A stretch of DNA of 64,000 bases from Robiginitalea myxolifaciens (GTDB lineage: Bacteria > Bacteroidota > Bacteroidia > Flavobacteriales > Flavobacteriaceae), in assembly GCF_900115205.1 (NCBI RefSeq), contig NZ_FOYQ01000002.1, positions 248,001-312,000 on the forward strand, written 5' to 3'. Each line of letters begins with the position of its first letter. Position 1 is the stretch's first letter. The notes under the pieces were generated by a model, which did not search any database, was not told where the DNA came from, and was given only the letters and a program-made list of their open reading frames with translations. Of the stretch, positions 2,159 to 8,892 are shown in pieces. A program made the translations under genes and the position numbers.

Positions 2159-3273
2159 ATACGGAGCGATACGACAGACAGATCAAGCTTAAAGGCTTCG
2201 GTCCCCATGGACAGGAGTTTCTGGCCCAATCCCGGGTGCTCCTGGTCGGAGCAGGAGGGTTGGGTGTCCCCGCTGCCCTCTACCTGAATGCCATGGGCGT
2301 AGGTCGGCTGGGACTGATCGACGGGGATCAGGTAGAACTGTCGAACCTCCATCGACAACCCATTTATACCGAAGCTGATCTCGGGAAACTCAAGGTAGAC
2401 TGTCTTTCCCGGTTTTTAAAACAACAGAATCCAAAGTCTTCGATTACGGTACTGGATACCTTCCTCCATGCTAGAAATGCCCTGGAAATCCTCGCTTCTT
2501 ATGATCTGATTATAGATGCTACTGACAATCTGGAAACGCGCTATCTCCTTGACGACGCCTGTCTGATGTTGGACAAACCCTGGATCTACGGCGCACTGCA
2601 TGGTTTTGAAGGTCAGGTAAGTGTTTTTAATTACCAAGGCGGACCTACTTATCGTTGCCTGTTCCCTAAAATGCCAGAGCAAGGAGAAATACCCGATTGC
2701 AATACCCTGGGCACCTTGGGTATCTTACCGGCAATTATTGGCAGTTTTCAGGCCCTGGAAGCGGTAAAGGTATTGTGTGATCTTGAGGGGGTACTCTCTG
2801 GCAAACTAATGATATTCGAAGGGCTTGAACAGCAAAGCCGTACCATTGCTTTTAAGCGCAATCCCAACAGGGCAATACCTAAAGAAATAGTAGCTGAAAA
2901 CTATAACGCGAACCTTTGTGATTCGGGCTCGGAAGCTGTTTCATACGAATCCTATCTGAGGGAAAGAAATTCGAACCAAACTGCATTGATCGACGTTCGG
3001 GAAATTTCCGAATTCGAGAACGGGTCGCTTCCTGAGGCCAGGATCGTTCCTCTGAGTAACCTTAAAGGAACGCTGGATCAGCACAATAGTGACGGCAAAG
3101 CCGTGCAGGAATTATTCGGAAAAGATACAAGCCGTGCAACCCGGATATTTTTGATTTGTAAATCAGGACCCCGGAGCCGTGTGGCCTGTTCCCTGTTAAG
3201 CCAGTACTTTCCTGAGTACGAATTCGCCTGGATAGAAGGTGGAATGCGCAGCATTAAAACCACTTCCCGGTGA
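2155..3273 (+). CDS. moeB: MoeB/ThiF-type adenylyltransferase with C-terminal rhodanese domain
   Basis: This E1-like enzyme adenylates the C-terminus of MoaD so that sulfur can be loaded onto it. In the 372 residues the Rossmann nucleotide loop is VGAGGLG (about 31-37), followed by DGDQVELSNLHRQ and ATDNLETR. A cysteine at about 182 (PDCNTLG) sits where the family has its conserved crossover-loop cysteine. After a linker comes a rhodanese domain (about 275-372) with active-site loop CKSGPRS (Cys335), which could carry the persulfide, as in MOCS3-type fusions. The two CxxC zinc pairs of E. coli MoeB are absent: only YRC (Cys168) remains, and the later pair is replaced by NPNR. Its ends overlap mobA and moeA by 4 bases each. 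Confidence 0.92.
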   Translation: MNTERYDRQIKLKGFGPHGQEFLAQSRVLLVGAGGLGVPAALYLNAMGVGRLGLIDGDQVELSNLHRQPIYTEADLGKLKVDCLSRFLKQQNPKSSITVLDTFLHARNALEILASYDLIIDATDNLETRYLLDDACLMLDKPWIYGALHGFEGQVSVFNYQGGPTYRCLFPKMPEQGEIPDCNTLGTLGILPAIIGSFQALEAVKVLCDLEGVLSGKLMIFEGLEQQSRTIAFKRNPNRAIPKEIVAENYNANLCDSGSEAVSYESYLRERNSNQTALIDVREISEFENGSLPEARIVPLSNLKGTLDQHNSDGKAVQELFGKDTSRATRIFLICKSGPRSRVACSLLSQYFPEYEFAWIEGGMRSIKTTSR

Positions 3274-4466
3274 TATCCTATCATCAAGCGCTGGAATCAG
3301 TTTTGGCCCGTAAAGCGGATTTTGGGGTGGAACAAGTTTCCCTGGAGCTGGCCAATGGCAGAGTCCTGGCCGAAGATGTTCTCGCGGATCGCGATCAACC
3401 GCCTTACAACCGCGCCACTATGGATGGGATTGCCCTGGCCTATCATACCTACGAAAAGGGGGTCCGGGAATTTCCAAGTGAAGGTATGGCCCGCGCCGGA
3501 ATTACGCAGTTAAAGTTACAGGATCCCAGTAACTGCATTGAAATTGCAACGGGAGCCATACTGCCAGAAGGTGCAGATACTATTGTACGGTATGAGGACC
3601 TGGAGGAAATACCGGAGGGTTTCAGGATATTAGCCGGTTGTACGCCTAACAAGAACATTCACCGCAAAGGAAGCGACGCCTCTGAAGGTGCCGTATTGCT
3701 GAAAAAGGGGCACTCGATCGATCCATCGGCGGTAGCGGTTTTAGCTTCCGTTGGTAAGGCAACCCTGGCCGTTCGGGGATTGCCGGGTATCACCATCCTC
3801 TCAACCGGCGATGAATTGGTCCCGGTCGAGACCATCCCGGAAACCCACCAGGTGCGCAGATCCAATGTCCACGCATTGCGCTCTGCAGTTTTGGCAGCGG
3901 GTATTCGCCCTGATTTGGAACATTTGCCCGACGATGCCGCCATCATCGAAAATCGCCTTGAAGCGTTACTTCAAACCCAGGATGTGTTGCTGTTGAGTGG
4001 CGGGGTGAGCAAGGGGAAATTTGACCATTTACCAGGGGTGCTCGAGAAATTGGGGGTGGTGAAGGATTTTCACCGTGTGGCCCAAAGGCCAGGTAAGCCC
4101 TTTTGGTTTGGAATGGATGCAGCTCGTGGGTGCCACGTGTTTTCTTTTCCGGGTAATCCGGTTTCTACCTTTTTGAATTATCATCTGTATTTTCTTCCCT
4201 GGCTTCGGCAAACTACAGGGGCGCCTGAACCCCGGATTACGGCAATATTGGAGGAACCCATTGAAAATAAGTCCGATCTCACGCATTTTATCCCGTTGCG
4301 ACTCTCACCTGAGCAGGGTCATTTAAATGCTGTACGCATATCCATGAATGGTTCGGGAGATTATCTAAGCCTAACCAAAGCCAATGCATTTGGTCGTGTA
4401 AACCCTGGGGAAGTACTGGTAAAAGGTGCGCTTGTTCCGTGTATTTGTTTTAATTTACAATTGTGA
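3270..4466 (+). CDS. moeA: MoeA, molybdopterin molybdotransferase
   Basis: MoeA inserts molybdate into adenylylated molybdopterin. The 398-residue product carries the family landmarks: RDQPPYNRATMDG near residue 50, LSTGDELV at the start of the MoaB/Mog-like domain, LLSGGVSKGKFD, and FSFPGNPVS. A C-terminal MoeA domain IV follows. Translation must begin at GTG 3270, which overlaps the moeB TGA as GTGA. Its own end overlaps the GTG start of the XdhC-like gene in the same way. This chain of 4-base overlaps means the pathway proteins are made together. No separate mog/moaB adenylyltransferase is visible in the window. Confidence 0.93.
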   Translation: MISYHQALESVLARKADFGVEQVSLELANGRVLAEDVLADRDQPPYNRATMDGIALAYHTYEKGVREFPSEGMARAGITQLKLQDPSNCIEIATGAILPEGADTIVRYEDLEEIPEGFRILAGCTPNKNIHRKGSDASEGAVLLKKGHSIDPSAVAVLASVGKATLAVRGLPGITILSTGDELVPVETIPETHQVRRSNVHALRSAVLAAGIRPDLEHLPDDAAIIENRLEALLQTQDVLLLSGGVSKGKFDHLPGVLEKLGVVKDFHRVAQRPGKPFWFGMDAARGCHVFSFPGNPVSTFLNYHLYFLPWLRQTTGAPEPRITAILEEPIENKSDLTHFIPLRLSPEQGHLNAVRISMNGSGDYLSLTKANAFGRVNPGEVLVKGALVPCICFNLQL

Positions 4467-5479
4467 CCCACGAGCTCAAAGAAATATTCCATGCCTATCA
4501 ACAAATAAAGCACGCAGGAATCTCCGTGCTGGCTACCGTTGTGCACCTGGAAGGGTCTGGATATCGGCGCCCAGGGGTTCGCATGCTTTGCCTCCCCGAT
4601 GGTTCCGCTGTAGGAGCCGTAAGTGGCGGATGTGTGGAACGCGATATTACGGGTCAGGCCCAGGAGGTTATGCGAACGGGAAAAGCCCGTATGATGACAT
4701 ACGATGGGCGGTACCGCCTGGGATGCGAGGGGATGTTGTACATTTTACTGGAGCCTTTTAACCCTTCGCAGGAAGCGATAACTTATTTCAAGAATCAGAC
4801 GGAGTCACGACAGCCTTTGGCGCTGGAATCGGACTATCGCCTGGAGGAAAGGGAGGCCCCGGAATTGGGCAGCTATTTCACGGTTGGGAAGCAGCGTTTG
4901 CCCTTAAGCCCGGCTAACCTGGCGGTTTCAGAAATGTGCTTTGCACAGCAGCTTTCCCCTACACATCGCTTGTTGGTCTTTGGTGGTGAACACGATAGCG
5001 TAAAGCTAACAGCTATGGCGGCAACCCTGGGTTGGGAGGTACATATTGTGGTAGCGGCCGATGAAGCCAAGCGGTTGGAAGATTTTCCGGGAGCATCGGA
5101 TTTTAGCTCAGTCATCCCGGAGCAACTGGGAGATCTGGGGATCGATTCTCAAACGGCAATCCTCCTGATGACCCACAGTTTTAGTAAGGATTTGAAATAC
5201 CTGTTGCAGCTAAGTGCAACTTCCCCCGCTTATTTGGGTATCCTTGGCCCTGCCCATCGCAGGGAACGACTCCTGGGCGAACTTATTGAGCGCCAACCAG
5301 ATTTAGACGACGCGTTTCTAGAATTAATTCACGGACCGGCAGGCCTGGATCTTGGAGCGGAAACTCCCCAGGAAATAGCGCTTTCCATCCTCTCAGAGAT
5401 ATTGAAAGCATTTCGCCAGGCTACGGCACTTCCACTTAATGAAAAGGAGAGCCGTATCCATACCCGTGAGGAGTCATAA
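4463..5479 (+). CDS. XdhC/CoxI family molybdoenzyme maturation protein
   Basis: XdhC-family proteins bind molybdenum cofactor and help sulfurate and insert it into xanthine-dehydrogenase-type enzymes. The 338-residue product has the N-terminal XdhC/CoxI domain with GSGYRRPG and the signature GAVSGGCVERD (about 50-65). A C-terminal Rossmann domain opens with LLVFGGEHDS. It starts at GTG 4463, overlapping the moeA stop by 4 bases. No xanthine dehydrogenase or aldehyde oxidase subunit lies in the window, so its client enzyme is encoded elsewhere or was not seen. Family assignment is firm; the client is unknown. Confidence 0.88.
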   Translation: MTHELKEIFHAYQQIKHAGISVLATVVHLEGSGYRRPGVRMLCLPDGSAVGAVSGGCVERDITGQAQEVMRTGKARMMTYDGRYRLGCEGMLYILLEPFNPSQEAITYFKNQTESRQPLALESDYRLEEREAPELGSYFTVGKQRLPLSPANLAVSEMCFAQQLSPTHRLLVFGGEHDSVKLTAMAATLGWEVHIVVAADEAKRLEDFPGASDFSSVIPEQLGDLGIDSQTAILLMTHSFSKDLKYLLQLSATSPAYLGILGPAHRRERLLGELIERQPDLDDAFLELIHGPAGLDLGAETPQEIALSILSEILKAFRQATALPLNEKESRIHTREES

Positions 5480-5488
5480 GCCATTCCT

Positions 5489-6124
5489 ATGCCTGACGAA
5501 ATCGCCACCCTTGTCCTCGCTGCAGGTGCGTCCCGTCGAATGGGCAGTCCGAAAGCCTTGCTTCCCTGGGGGCAACGAACGGTGTTGGAACACCTACTGG
5601 AGGAAATCCATGCGCAGGCCAATGCTGAGTATGCAGCCGATTCCCTGATAATTGTAACCGGCGCCCATCACGATCAAATAAAAAGCGCCATTCCCAGCTG
5701 GTCTGATATGCTTGAGTATAATGCAAGCTGGGATCAGGGTATGGGTAATTCCCTGGCTTTTGGTATTCAGCGTACGCAGGAAAAATTCCCCAATGCCATA
5801 GCCGTGATGATTCTCCTTGTAGATCAGCCCCTGATCGACCGGAAATATATCCGTACTTTAAAGGAGTATTCTAAGGAATACCCCAAAAAGATTATTGCCA
5901 GCCGCTACGCTGAGGGATTTGGAGCACCTGCAATAATACCTGCAATCCTGTGGGATTATATGCTGTTGGAAAGCCCGAAGCAAGGAGCAAAATCCTGGAT
6001 GCGAAAGCAGGCAGCTATCCTCTCTCCGGAGCTACACCCGGATCTTCGGGATATCGATACGCCAGCGGCTTATCAAAGACTGCATAGCGAATGGAAACAA
6101 AATCAACCCAATACAACTGGCTAA
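5489..6124 (+). CDS. MocA-like molybdenum cofactor cytidylyltransferase family protein
   Basis: A 211-residue nucleotidyltransferase of the MobA/MocA superfamily. The N-terminal signature is LVLAAGASRRMGSPKALLPW (about 8-27). The AGASRRMG.PK form, rather than AGG.S.RMG, is typical of MocA-like enzymes, which make the cytosine dinucleotide cofactor used by xanthine-dehydrogenase-family proteins. LLVDQPL matches the metal-site motif. It follows the XdhC-like gene by 9 bases, the usual pairing of MocA with XdhC. It ends the cofactor operon or runs into the amidohydrolase gene 11 bases later. CTP versus GTP specificity cannot be told from sequence alone. Confidence 0.82.
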   Translation: MPDEIATLVLAAGASRRMGSPKALLPWGQRTVLEHLLEEIHAQANAEYAADSLIIVTGAHHDQIKSAIPSWSDMLEYNASWDQGMGNSLAFGIQRTQEKFPNAIAVMILLVDQPLIDRKYIRTLKEYSKEYPKKIIASRYAEGFGAPAIIPAILWDYMLLESPKQGAKSWMRKQAAILSPELHPDLRDIDTPAAYQRLHSEWKQNQPNTTG

Positions 6125-7323: not shown

Positions 7324-8118
7324 ATGAAAAAGTTCGAATTGTTCCGGGCCATTATGTTCGGAATCCTCGCAAGTATCCTTCTTTTAGGGTGTAGTTCAGA
7401 TGCCGACGAGCAGGAAATTGCCGAAGAGGCCAAACTTACCGATACAGAATTACAAGCAGTCTTTGAAACTGAAGAGTGGACGGGAGTTGCTGATAGTGCG
7501 CTTTCCGAATTGTACCAGGCTGGAAACAGTGCTTCCGGTAAAACCGCAGCAAATGAGTGCTATTCCGCTGAATACACTGAAAACGGATTCACCGCAACCT
7601 TTGCGAACTGTGTACTTAATGGTACCGAAAACGTAAATGGTACTTTGGTGGTTGTTTATGGAGTATCCGAAGAAACTGCCGAATATACAGCTACGTACGA
7701 TGGTTTCTTTGTAGGCGAGGTGGAATTGAACGGTACGCGAAGCTACGTACTTAGTCAGGGAATGAATGAGAATAGTATTTCACTGACCGTGGTTAGCGAT
7801 ATGAGCGTGACCATGCCCGATGGAAGCATGCTGAGTGAAAGCGGTACGCGAACAGTAGAATTCGCTTTCGGAGAGAACTTTTCCGATTCTACTGTTAGCT
7901 TAAGCGGCGACTGGACGCTTATTAAGGATGGTAACACCTACAGCGTGGCCATTGAAAGCCCGCTGACAGGTAATTTTTCCTGTGAGTATTTGGTTAGTGG
8001 TCTGATGGAAATCAGCAAAAATGGTCTTGCCGTGATGGTAGACCTGGGAGATGGGAGTTGCGATAATACGGCAACACTTACCTATCCCAATGGAGCCCAG
8101 GAAACCCTGGAATTCTAA
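7324..8118 (+). CDS. Putative lipoprotein of unknown function
   Basis: The 264-residue product begins with a lipoprotein signal ending LLLGC (Cys at about 23), followed by SSDADEQE, an acidic stretch like those on exported Bacteroidota lipoproteins. The rest is rich in Thr, Ser, Glu and Gly with alternating polar and hydrophobic residues, suggesting beta structure. There are five well-spaced cysteines after the lipobox (for example NECYS, FANC, FSCEY, GSCDN), which could form disulfides. I do not recognise the family. It has its own upstream gap of about 100 bases and is followed by a strong bidirectional terminator. Confidence 0.75.
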   Translation: MKKFELFRAIMFGILASILLLGCSSDADEQEIAEEAKLTDTELQAVFETEEWTGVADSALSELYQAGNSASGKTAANECYSAEYTENGFTATFANCVLNGTENVNGTLVVVYGVSEETAEYTATYDGFFVGEVELNGTRSYVLSQGMNENSISLTVVSDMSVTMPDGSMLSESGTRTVEFAFGENFSDSTVSLSGDWTLIKDGNTYSVAIESPLTGNFSCEYLVSGLMEISKNGLAVMVDLGDGSCDNTATLTYPNGAQETLEF

Positions 8119-8144: not shown

Positions 8145-8176
8145 AAAGGCCCCGCTAGTGCGGGGCCTTTTTGTTT
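8145..8176. terminator. Strong hairpin terminator, probably bidirectional
   Basis: A perfect 11-bp stem (AAAGGCCCCGC at 8145-8155 with its complement at 8160-8170) closes a 4-base TAGT loop. It is followed on the plus strand by TTGTTT. Reading the minus strand, the stem is followed by CTTTTTAAA, so it can also stop transcription coming from the two microprotein genes at 8209-8492. It lies between these convergent units, 26 bases after the lipoprotein stop. Confidence 0.88.
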
Positions 8177-8208: not shown

Positions 8209-8322
8209 TTAGTAAACGTAGTTCCGACTCTCGGTCCAACGGACGCGCTTGCTATCCCTGAAGGAGGAAAAAGTAGCAAATCGACGGGCCTCGGTAGGAG
8301 ACAGGTTTTTAAAAGGTTTCAT
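8209..8322 (-). CDS. Predicted 37-aa arginine-rich microprotein, paralog A
   Basis: A minus-strand frame from ATG at 8322-8320 to TAA at 8211-8209 encodes 37 residues. Its core (SPTEARRF, then SKRVRW, then RNYV) is repeated in the next frame at 8382-8492. The two proteins share about 24 of 36 aligned residues, while many shared residues use different codons (AGC AAG CGC GTC against AGT AAA CGA GTA). That is the pattern expected of selection on protein sequence. The product is very basic with a central Trp and no signal peptide or membrane segment. The stop sits 38 bases from the bidirectional terminator. The leader contains a simple TGATGATT-type repeat at about 8337-8361. Function unknown; no family recognised. 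Confidence 0.6.
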   Translation of the reverse strand: MKPFKNLSPTEARRFATFSSFRDSKRVRWTESRNYVY

Positions 8323-8381
8323 GACAGTTCGTTTAAATGATTGATGATGATTGATGATTGACAGGGTTTGTGGCCCCGGGT

Positions 8382-8492
8382 TTAGTGAACGTAGTTGCGG
8401 GCTTCCGACCAACGTACTCGTTTACTTCCTTTGAAATTTGAGAAATAACTAAATCTTCTCGCTTCTGTGGGTGATCCAATACTTGTTTTCAT
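8382..8492 (-). CDS. Predicted 36-aa arginine-rich microprotein, paralog B
   Basis: A minus-strand frame from ATG at 8492-8490 to TAA at 8384-8382 encodes 36 residues. It carries the same blocks as paralog A: SPTEARRF, FS.F, SKRVRW, then W.EARNYVH at the end. It is the upstream copy of the tandem pair; 59 bases separate its stop from the ATG of paralog A. It is too short for ordinary gene callers. An AT-rich 400-base region upstream probably holds its promoter. A nucleic-acid-binding or ribosome-associated role would fit the basic composition, but that is only a guess. Confidence 0.6.
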   Translation of the reverse strand: MKTSIGSPTEARRFSYFSNFKGSKRVRWSEARNYVH

Positions 8493-8892
8493 GATGTTTT
8501 ATTTTTTGATGATGATTGTTTTTTGTCTACGCTGATTCCGCCTGACCATCCCCATCCCAGGGCGAAGCCCCGGTCCAGGTAATAATATTTATTTTGTTTA
8601 AAGGTCATCGTATATCAATTTTGACTACACCAATAAGACGACCACAAAAATAAAATGTTACAGTACTATGCATAAAAAGGTACTGTTTTAAACAATTATT
8701 AAGAAAGAAAAATCGTCCCAAAATAATATAAACCATTGTTTATCAGATATATAAACGAAAGGTGTGAAAAAATCAGTTTTGGTAATATTTAACATATTTT
8801 CCGAAGTGTTGGTGATTATCTCGCATAAAATTTCATGAGAATTCTGCGCAAAATGGGTGAGCTTTTCCATTCATTCGTATATTTCTGCTGCC
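8493..8892. other. AT-rich intergenic region between microprotein pair and SDR gene
   Basis: About 400 bases without a convincing gene. From about 8580 onward it is strongly AT-rich. It must contain the promoters of the minus-strand microproteins and of the plus-strand SDR at 8893; TATATTTC at about 8879-8886, a few bases before the SDR ATG, resembles the Bacteroidota TAnnTTTG element. A short GGGC-GAA-GCCC hairpin is present near 8560-8570. I saw no RNA gene or repeat family. Confidence 0.5.

Follow-up and report, generated by a model that had tools for sequence, protein, structure and literature searches.

Tandem microprotein genes of Flavobacteriaceae behind a conserved ECF-type promoter

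Are two very short open reading frames on the minus strand of Robiginitalea myxolifaciens DNA real genes, and if so, what could their products be for? The original prediction, made from a stretch of 64,000 nucleotides (hereafter the window), proposed that the frames at 8382-8492 and 8209-8322 encode paralogous microproteins that share about 24 of 36 residues. Both frames are present at these positions and run from ATG to TAA. The features of the pair are as follows.

8382..8492, minus strand: microprotein copy 1, 36 aa, ATG start, TAA stop, MKTSIGSPTEARRFSYFSNFKGSKRVRWSEARNYVH
8209..8322, minus strand: microprotein copy 2, 37 aa, ATG start, TAA stop, MKPFKNLSPTEARRFATFSSFRDSKRVRWTESRNYVY
8323..8381, minus strand: spacer of 59 nt, which holds the second translation start region

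Alignment of the two copies gives 24 identical residues of 36, and 15 of these 24 use different codons, as had been noticed. Synonymous sites are saturated between the copies, with a dN of 0.29. Both proteins are indeed very basic (pI 11.0, charge about +5.5) and are hydrophilic, with a GRAVY of about -1.0. Microproteins of this type have a conserved C-terminal W-x3-R-x-Y tail. The AlphaFold2 model is poor (pLDDT 66.6, pTM 0.24, two short helices), leaving nucleic acid binding without fold support. Genes so short fall below the usual annotation cut-offs.

Coding status and family of the microproteins

The genome has four copies of the gene, the window pair and two more on contig C3 (142193-142303 and 243143-243241). 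These other two, seen in loci L005 (4194-4307) and L006 (4132-4245), are single orphan copies where the promoter described below is absent; the L006 copy begins 35 nt after an ORF on the same strand and may be read from that ORF. Clear copies are found in nine of ten genomes of the genus (best E < 1e-9), in most cases two or three of them in tandem. The tenth genome, which is 74% complete, gives a best match of only E 0.47. Some copies are broken, and one copy in G002 is interrupted by an internal TAA. Robiginitalea belongs to the Flavobacteriaceae, and an even sample of this family contains homologs at E <= 0.01 in 49 of 397 genomes and 30 of 237 genera, often as multiple copies about 150 nt apart. 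The relatives recovered by pattern search include Robiginitalea, Maribacter, Eudoraea, Saonia and Ulvibacterium. In the order sample, the window-type profile matches 6 of 296 genomes, five of them in the same family, and the sixth match is a fragment of 20 residues.

We extracted 116 distinct members from these loci and used 114 for the statistics, leaving out two weak scorers. One distinct copy (found in L049, L085, L089 and L091) and a fragment in L077 were also left out, as they have no start. All 114 members begin with ATG, a codon that the script prefers, and 89 of them are exactly 37 aa long. Among the 89 members of 37 aa, 1116 of 3916 pairs could be used for dN/dS, the remainder being saturated or too similar. 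The median dN/dS of these 1116 pairs is 0.28, and 92% of them lie below 1. The wrong-frame controls, on more pairs, give medians of 1.5 and 1.0, so that the purifying selection on protein that had been suspected is supported in the correct frame only. The pooled pN/pS of the 1116 pairs is 0.51, and third codon positions are the most variable. The homologs, the synonymous bias and the conserved start and stop that the original prediction named as support were all found. The start regions of the 114 members have A at positions -13, -12, -6 and -3 in 89, 93, 61 and 65% of cases, respectively; the same positions are discussed for translation initiation in F. johnsoniae in the available part of PMC6847099.

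The expectation that no named family would fit was also borne out, since window-type proteins match no Pfam, NCBIfam or PHROGs family. The peptide strings that we tested are absent from the open-licence PubMed Central papers searched. A phage or plasmid origin was considered and rejected, because phage and plasmid matches are at chance level only (E at least 3); viral contigs held no match to the one exact degenerate pattern used. Chance open frames are likewise rejected for the family as a whole in view of the homologs and the dN/dS. As judged from sequence, then, this is a previously unnamed family of often tandem microprotein genes in many Flavobacteriaceae.

The operon and its promoter

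The reading of the locus as a pair is right in that both microproteins are coding, but it is incomplete. The locus is predicted to form an operon of three ORFs behind a promoter of its own, and two further features complete the predicted unit.

8489..8608, minus strand: small ORF 1, the first in the operon, 39 aa, containing GWGWSGG, of GFGW type; start codon uncertain
8148..8167, no strand assigned: intrinsic terminator hairpin, GGCCCCGC-4 nt-GCGGGGCC, paired in the computed fold

The TGA of small ORF 1 (8489-8491) overlaps the ATG of copy 1 (8490-8492). With a motif filter we collected 17 distinct GFGW-type ORFs, the one in the window included, which lie between the promoter and the array in related loci and are mostly about 40 aa long. 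These GFGW-type proteins match no family in Pfam, NCBIfam or PHROGs. The strong bidirectional terminator that had been claimed downstream of the pair is found as the GC-rich hairpin at 8148-8167, flanked on either side by A/T runs, and it is common to the array and a convergent lipoprotein-like gene at 7324-8118. By eye, a terminator-like hairpin closes most array groups, and most have a gap of a few hundred nt ahead of the first ORF, which measures 365 nt in the window. The spacers between ORFs are poorly conserved except for the start region. In L132, inter-copy spacers of 134 nt hold stretches that by eye resemble additional promoters.

Genes of lipoprotein-like, methyltransferase-like and peptidase-like types (named by inspection) recur beside the arrays within lineages. 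Because these neighbours differ between lineages while the promoter is constant, we read them as probable bystanders. Elsewhere in the window, a run of plus-strand ORFs at 3270-6124 resembles molybdenum-cofactor and XdhC-type maturation genes, by eye only.

Upstream of the three ORFs, the whole conserved block spans 8637-8704 and has the following parts.

8685..8704, minus strand: upstream A/T element with the consensus TGTTAAAaATTgctTAAaAt; each position has about 0.4-1.9 bits across the 34 aligned arrays
8679..8684, minus strand: left half-site AGTACC of the dyad AGTACC-N11-AGTACT
8637..8667, minus strand: promoter core AGTAC-TGTAAC-N16-CGTC, made up of the right half-site, the -35 box and the -10 box
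8657-8662, minus strand: ECF-type -35 box TGTAAC, within the promoter core
8637-8640, minus strand: ECF-type -10 box CGTC, within the promoter core

The right half of the dyad runs into TGTAAC-N16-CGTC. The window agrees only partly with the consensus of the upstream A/T element, and a left half-site with at most two mismatches to AGTACT is found at this spacing in 33 of the 34 aligned window-type arrays. The core, AGTACTGTAAC-N16-CGTC, has a single exact match in the genome, which is also the sole match in the window. When two mismatches are allowed, three further genome sites appear, against four for the reversed control. Of the 44 array groups, 35 have the core when one mismatch is tolerated (34 with N16 and one with N17), and the nine without it include both other copies of this genome. 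At the same threshold, the core is present in 46 of 54 microprotein-bearing genomes, with 68 matches against 17 for the reversed control; that most of the 68 lie just 5' of arrays was judged by eye from coordinates. The exact core is found in 157 of 397 genomes of the family (one control match) and in 109 of 237 sampled genera. In the phylum sample it occurs in 6 of 252 genomes, all of them in the family, again with one control match, and in none of 225 sampled Bacteroidota outside the family. A strict housekeeping promoter, TTTG-N17-21-TAnnTTTG, is not matched in full within 500 nt before any of the 44 array groups. Regulation of the array by an ECF-type promoter is well supported as a prediction.

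Other small proteins behind the same promoter

Many genomes without the window type have one to four ORFs like MRTLNNNQLTGTLNGTKSNQWNTKRRYR behind the promoter (the 28-aa MRTLNNNQL...WNxKRRYR type), and these proteins share a similar W-x3-R-x-Y tail. For a count, 80 loci were hand-picked among the matches listed for the exact promoter; the ORF filter was loose and its hits were then sorted. The 106 rows gave 105 distinct sites, as L286 duplicates one L194 site, and L264 was dropped because its sequence after the site is too short. Among the matches listed, a W-x3-[RKNH]-type small ORF lies within 700 nt at 98 of 105 sites. Among the controls, such an ORF turned up in 19 of 2000 shuffled sequences, on 26 of 1000 opposite strands and in 148 of 2000 random windows, and the random windows include some real arrays. 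Again among the matches listed, the 28-aa type is present at 87 of the 105 sites, with at least two copies at 51 of the 87 and a longer ORF as well at 33; five sites have window-type or bridging ORFs and six have longer ORFs only. The 43-aa ORF of L279 was moved by eye out of the window-type group.

The longer ORF follows the 28-aa ORFs at about one third of the sites, and it is typically 43-44 aa with a WKGTKRYAH-like end. In L173, L175, L176, L188, L193 and others, such a protein is the last ORF of the array, and an ExbD-like gene (by inspection only) begins downstream in several loci with a last ORF of 43-44 aa. An NCBIfam search gave no family for the 28-aa and 44-aa types.

The seven misses among the matches listed are L194 (two sites), L280, L216, L213, L222 and L259, of which L213, L222 and L259 look like chance promoter sites. 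At both L194 sites and in L280, the dyad promoter precedes an apparently secreted, acidic protein of 188 aa with repeats like EIEEEVELGFDTSKYLPKNFNALKG. It has no Pfam family and could be one more product under the same regulator. In L216, four 29-aa ORFs stand in tandem behind the exact promoter. They lack the conserved Trp (MRTSSETKNRKQFMNSEATSLGYFKRRIA), and three of them are identical, with the fourth nearly so; judged by these sequences, this is a lineage in which the tail was lost or replaced.

Comparison of the 28-aa and 44-aa profiles places their C-termini in register (E 7.9e-5, probability 61%). An hhalign comparison of the window and 28-aa families likewise has the Trp and the tail in register and is weak when taken alone (probability 12.8%, E 0.0022). 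Common descent of the window and 28-aa types is favoured by two bridge forms, L258 (24 aa, MRTTIFNNSKRVRWSAHRNYAIKS) and L237 (33 aa). The window microproteins are probably a branch of a wider superfamily that includes the 28-aa proteins; both have the same promoter and small basic ORFs that are often tandem. The 28-aa profile matches 5 of 252 phylum-sample genomes, all in the family and two weakly, and 9 of 296 order-sample genomes, where a single match, a weak one, falls outside the family.

With its terminal W-[KR]-G-T-K-R-Y, the 44-aa sister family loosely resembles bTHX, a small protein of the 30S ribosomal subunit. Profile searches of solved structures (families A2, A3 and A4) yielded no ribosomal chain but only unrelated ones, at E of at least 0.11.

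A candidate ECF sigma factor and the possible role of the array

Which sigma factor might read this promoter? The boxes TGTAAC-N16-CGTC have 13 matches in the genome against 6 for the reversed control, so about half of the 13 may be due to chance. One match precedes an ECF sigma gene. Of the rest, some stand ahead of what inspection suggests are an M16-like protease, a small secreted protein and a MacB-like permease; several resemble chance sites. In L199 of this genome (C2:872293-872318), ECF-type boxes lie directly before a 114-aa, apparently secreted protein with no Pfam family. The sigma factor matches NCBIfam NF058625.1, the GFO_1088/PG0214 family, with 235.9 bits (cut-off 130), and its gene is followed by that of a 138-aa protein and then of a DUF4252 protein. 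This order matches that of PG_0214-0216 in P. gingivalis. According to the available part of PMC10101095, expression of these genes rises roughly 8- to 11-fold in one mutant exposed to hydrogen peroxide, and PG_0215 is called a putative anti-sigma factor; PG0214 is also covered in the accessible text of PMC9862357.

Relatives of the sigma factor are present in all 24 chosen genomes, in 23 of them at E <= 1.4e-64. The remaining one, in G175 (E 4.9e-38), has the sigma promoter without an exact array promoter. In 23 of the 24 genomes, the best sigma match is preceded by TGTAAC-N16-CGTC at a distance of about 62-87 nt; in the other, L323, CGTG replaces CGTC. The boxes are absent before the two weaker sigma paralogs inspected. 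The sigma operon and the array have the same -35 and -10 boxes and the same 16-nt spacer, and the -10 box of the sigma promoters is often followed by a similar, TGTAA-like sequence. The sigma promoters differ in having no AGTAC before TGTAAC, and the operon differs in encoding proteins of ordinary size. Sigma and array are not always found together, given G175 and genus g128, for which many species were sampled and no exact promoter was found among the genomes listed. The array promoter could also be read by other ECF sigma factors with the same boxes. The SM6 promoters of F. psychrophilum have a CGT -10 box as well, and their regulon includes an ECF sigma/anti-sigma operon; a microprotein array is not among the features in the portion of text compared (PMC9723704).

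We hypothesize that the locus is a self-contained microprotein operon in the regulon of an ECF sigma factor, and we give this reading a probability of about 0.6. It is suggested by the purifying selection, the tandem amplification, the dedicated promoter, the terminator, the restriction to the family in the sampled genomes and the boxes before the sigma gene. The window microproteins are probably genuine gene products, made in a stress response of which little is known, since they belong to a family present in many Flavobacteriaceae and stand behind one highly conserved stress-type promoter.

A possible sequence of events is as follows. Envelope or oxidative stress would free the PG0214/GFO_1088-family sigma factor from its co-encoded partner, and the freed sigma factor would transcribe its own operon and the array. 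A second regulator at the AGTAC dyad beside the -35 box may help or gate the array. Translation from Bacteroidota-type starts (with A at -13, -12, -6 and -3) would yield a large pool of basic peptides of 36-39 aa, with the tandem copies setting the dosage. The peptides would remain in the cytoplasm, bind RNA, the ribosome or DNA via the W-x3-R-x-Y tail, and in this way adjust gene expression during stress. That the target is RNA or the ribosome is a guess from the charge, the hydrophilic make-up and the conserved tail.

Alternatively, the microproteins could be small anti-sigmas that end the response by binding to RNA polymerase or to the ECF sigma factor. Such a feedback inhibitor would share its promoter boxes with the sigma gene, as is the case here, and would be made only while the sigma factor is active, and a dose set by the number of copies would fit a titrator. 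However, the 138-aa protein of the sigma operon already sits at the putative anti-sigma position (cf. PG_0215), and we regard feedback inhibition as unlikely.

Slightly less probable again is that the short, terminated, ECF-driven transcript acts as a small RNA, either with a dual function or purely as RNA, the ORFs being minor. The isolated, conserved promoter and the short terminated unit would fit such a regulator. In E. coli, RybB and MicA are sigma-E small RNAs that act as RNAs, and these, like the array, are short terminated units with very conserved ECF promoters. The SM6 promoters of F. psychrophilum include that of a putative regulatory RNA, Rfp11, described in the available part of PMC9723704 as conserved in other species and with a strong predicted structure. 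Here, in contrast to RybB and MicA, selection tracks the reading frame, with a median dN/dS of 0.28 and the greatest variability at third codon positions, and the spacers between ORFs are poorly conserved beyond the start region. The fold of the window transcript is just slightly more stable than those of shuffled sequences (z -1.66, with 7 of 100 shuffles as stable), and the window has no Rfam match at the gathering threshold. Across 12 loci and the window stretch, Rfam gave sub-threshold matches only (to the terminator region, to a microRNA family and one far below the cut-off).

It is very improbable that the peptides are leaderless bacteriocins, released to kill neighbours. Enterocin L50A/B and aureocin A70 are leaderless bacteriocins, and the window peptides resemble them in being tandem paralogs that are cationic, lack an obvious leader and have a conserved Trp. 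The window peptides differ in being hydrophilic, and a linked ABC transporter or immunity-like cluster was not identified in the 11 representatives inspected from 43 neighbourhoods. An EamA-type permease family is present in 9 of the 43 and does not adjoin the window array. The boxes common to the array and a sigma gene also speak against bacteriocins. The same GRAVY of about -1.0 led us to reject a type I toxin, as the peptides are not hydrophobic and membrane-spanning. Chance frames or a decayed mobile element, which the broken copies (such as that in G002) and the two orphan copies elsewhere in the genome might suggest, have a negligible probability against the homologs, the selection and the promoter conservation.

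The operon reading provides a concrete and testable output for a Bacteroidota ECF sigma factor about whose regulon little is known, and the 31-bp promoter core together with the array is a clean marker for existing transcriptomes. A broader and clearly speculative extension, which we consider less likely to be right than wrong, is that many Flavobacteriaceae keep one or two loci solely for a burst of near-identical basic peptides of 24-44 aa. These would act in trans on RNA or the ribosome when an ECF sigma factor and a dyad-binding regulator are activated, and would represent a new class of stress effector. If true, such peptides would be the protein equivalent of the sigma-E small RNAs. Should the peptides act on translation, the Flavobacteriaceae would have a protein stress effector where other bacteria employ small RNAs.
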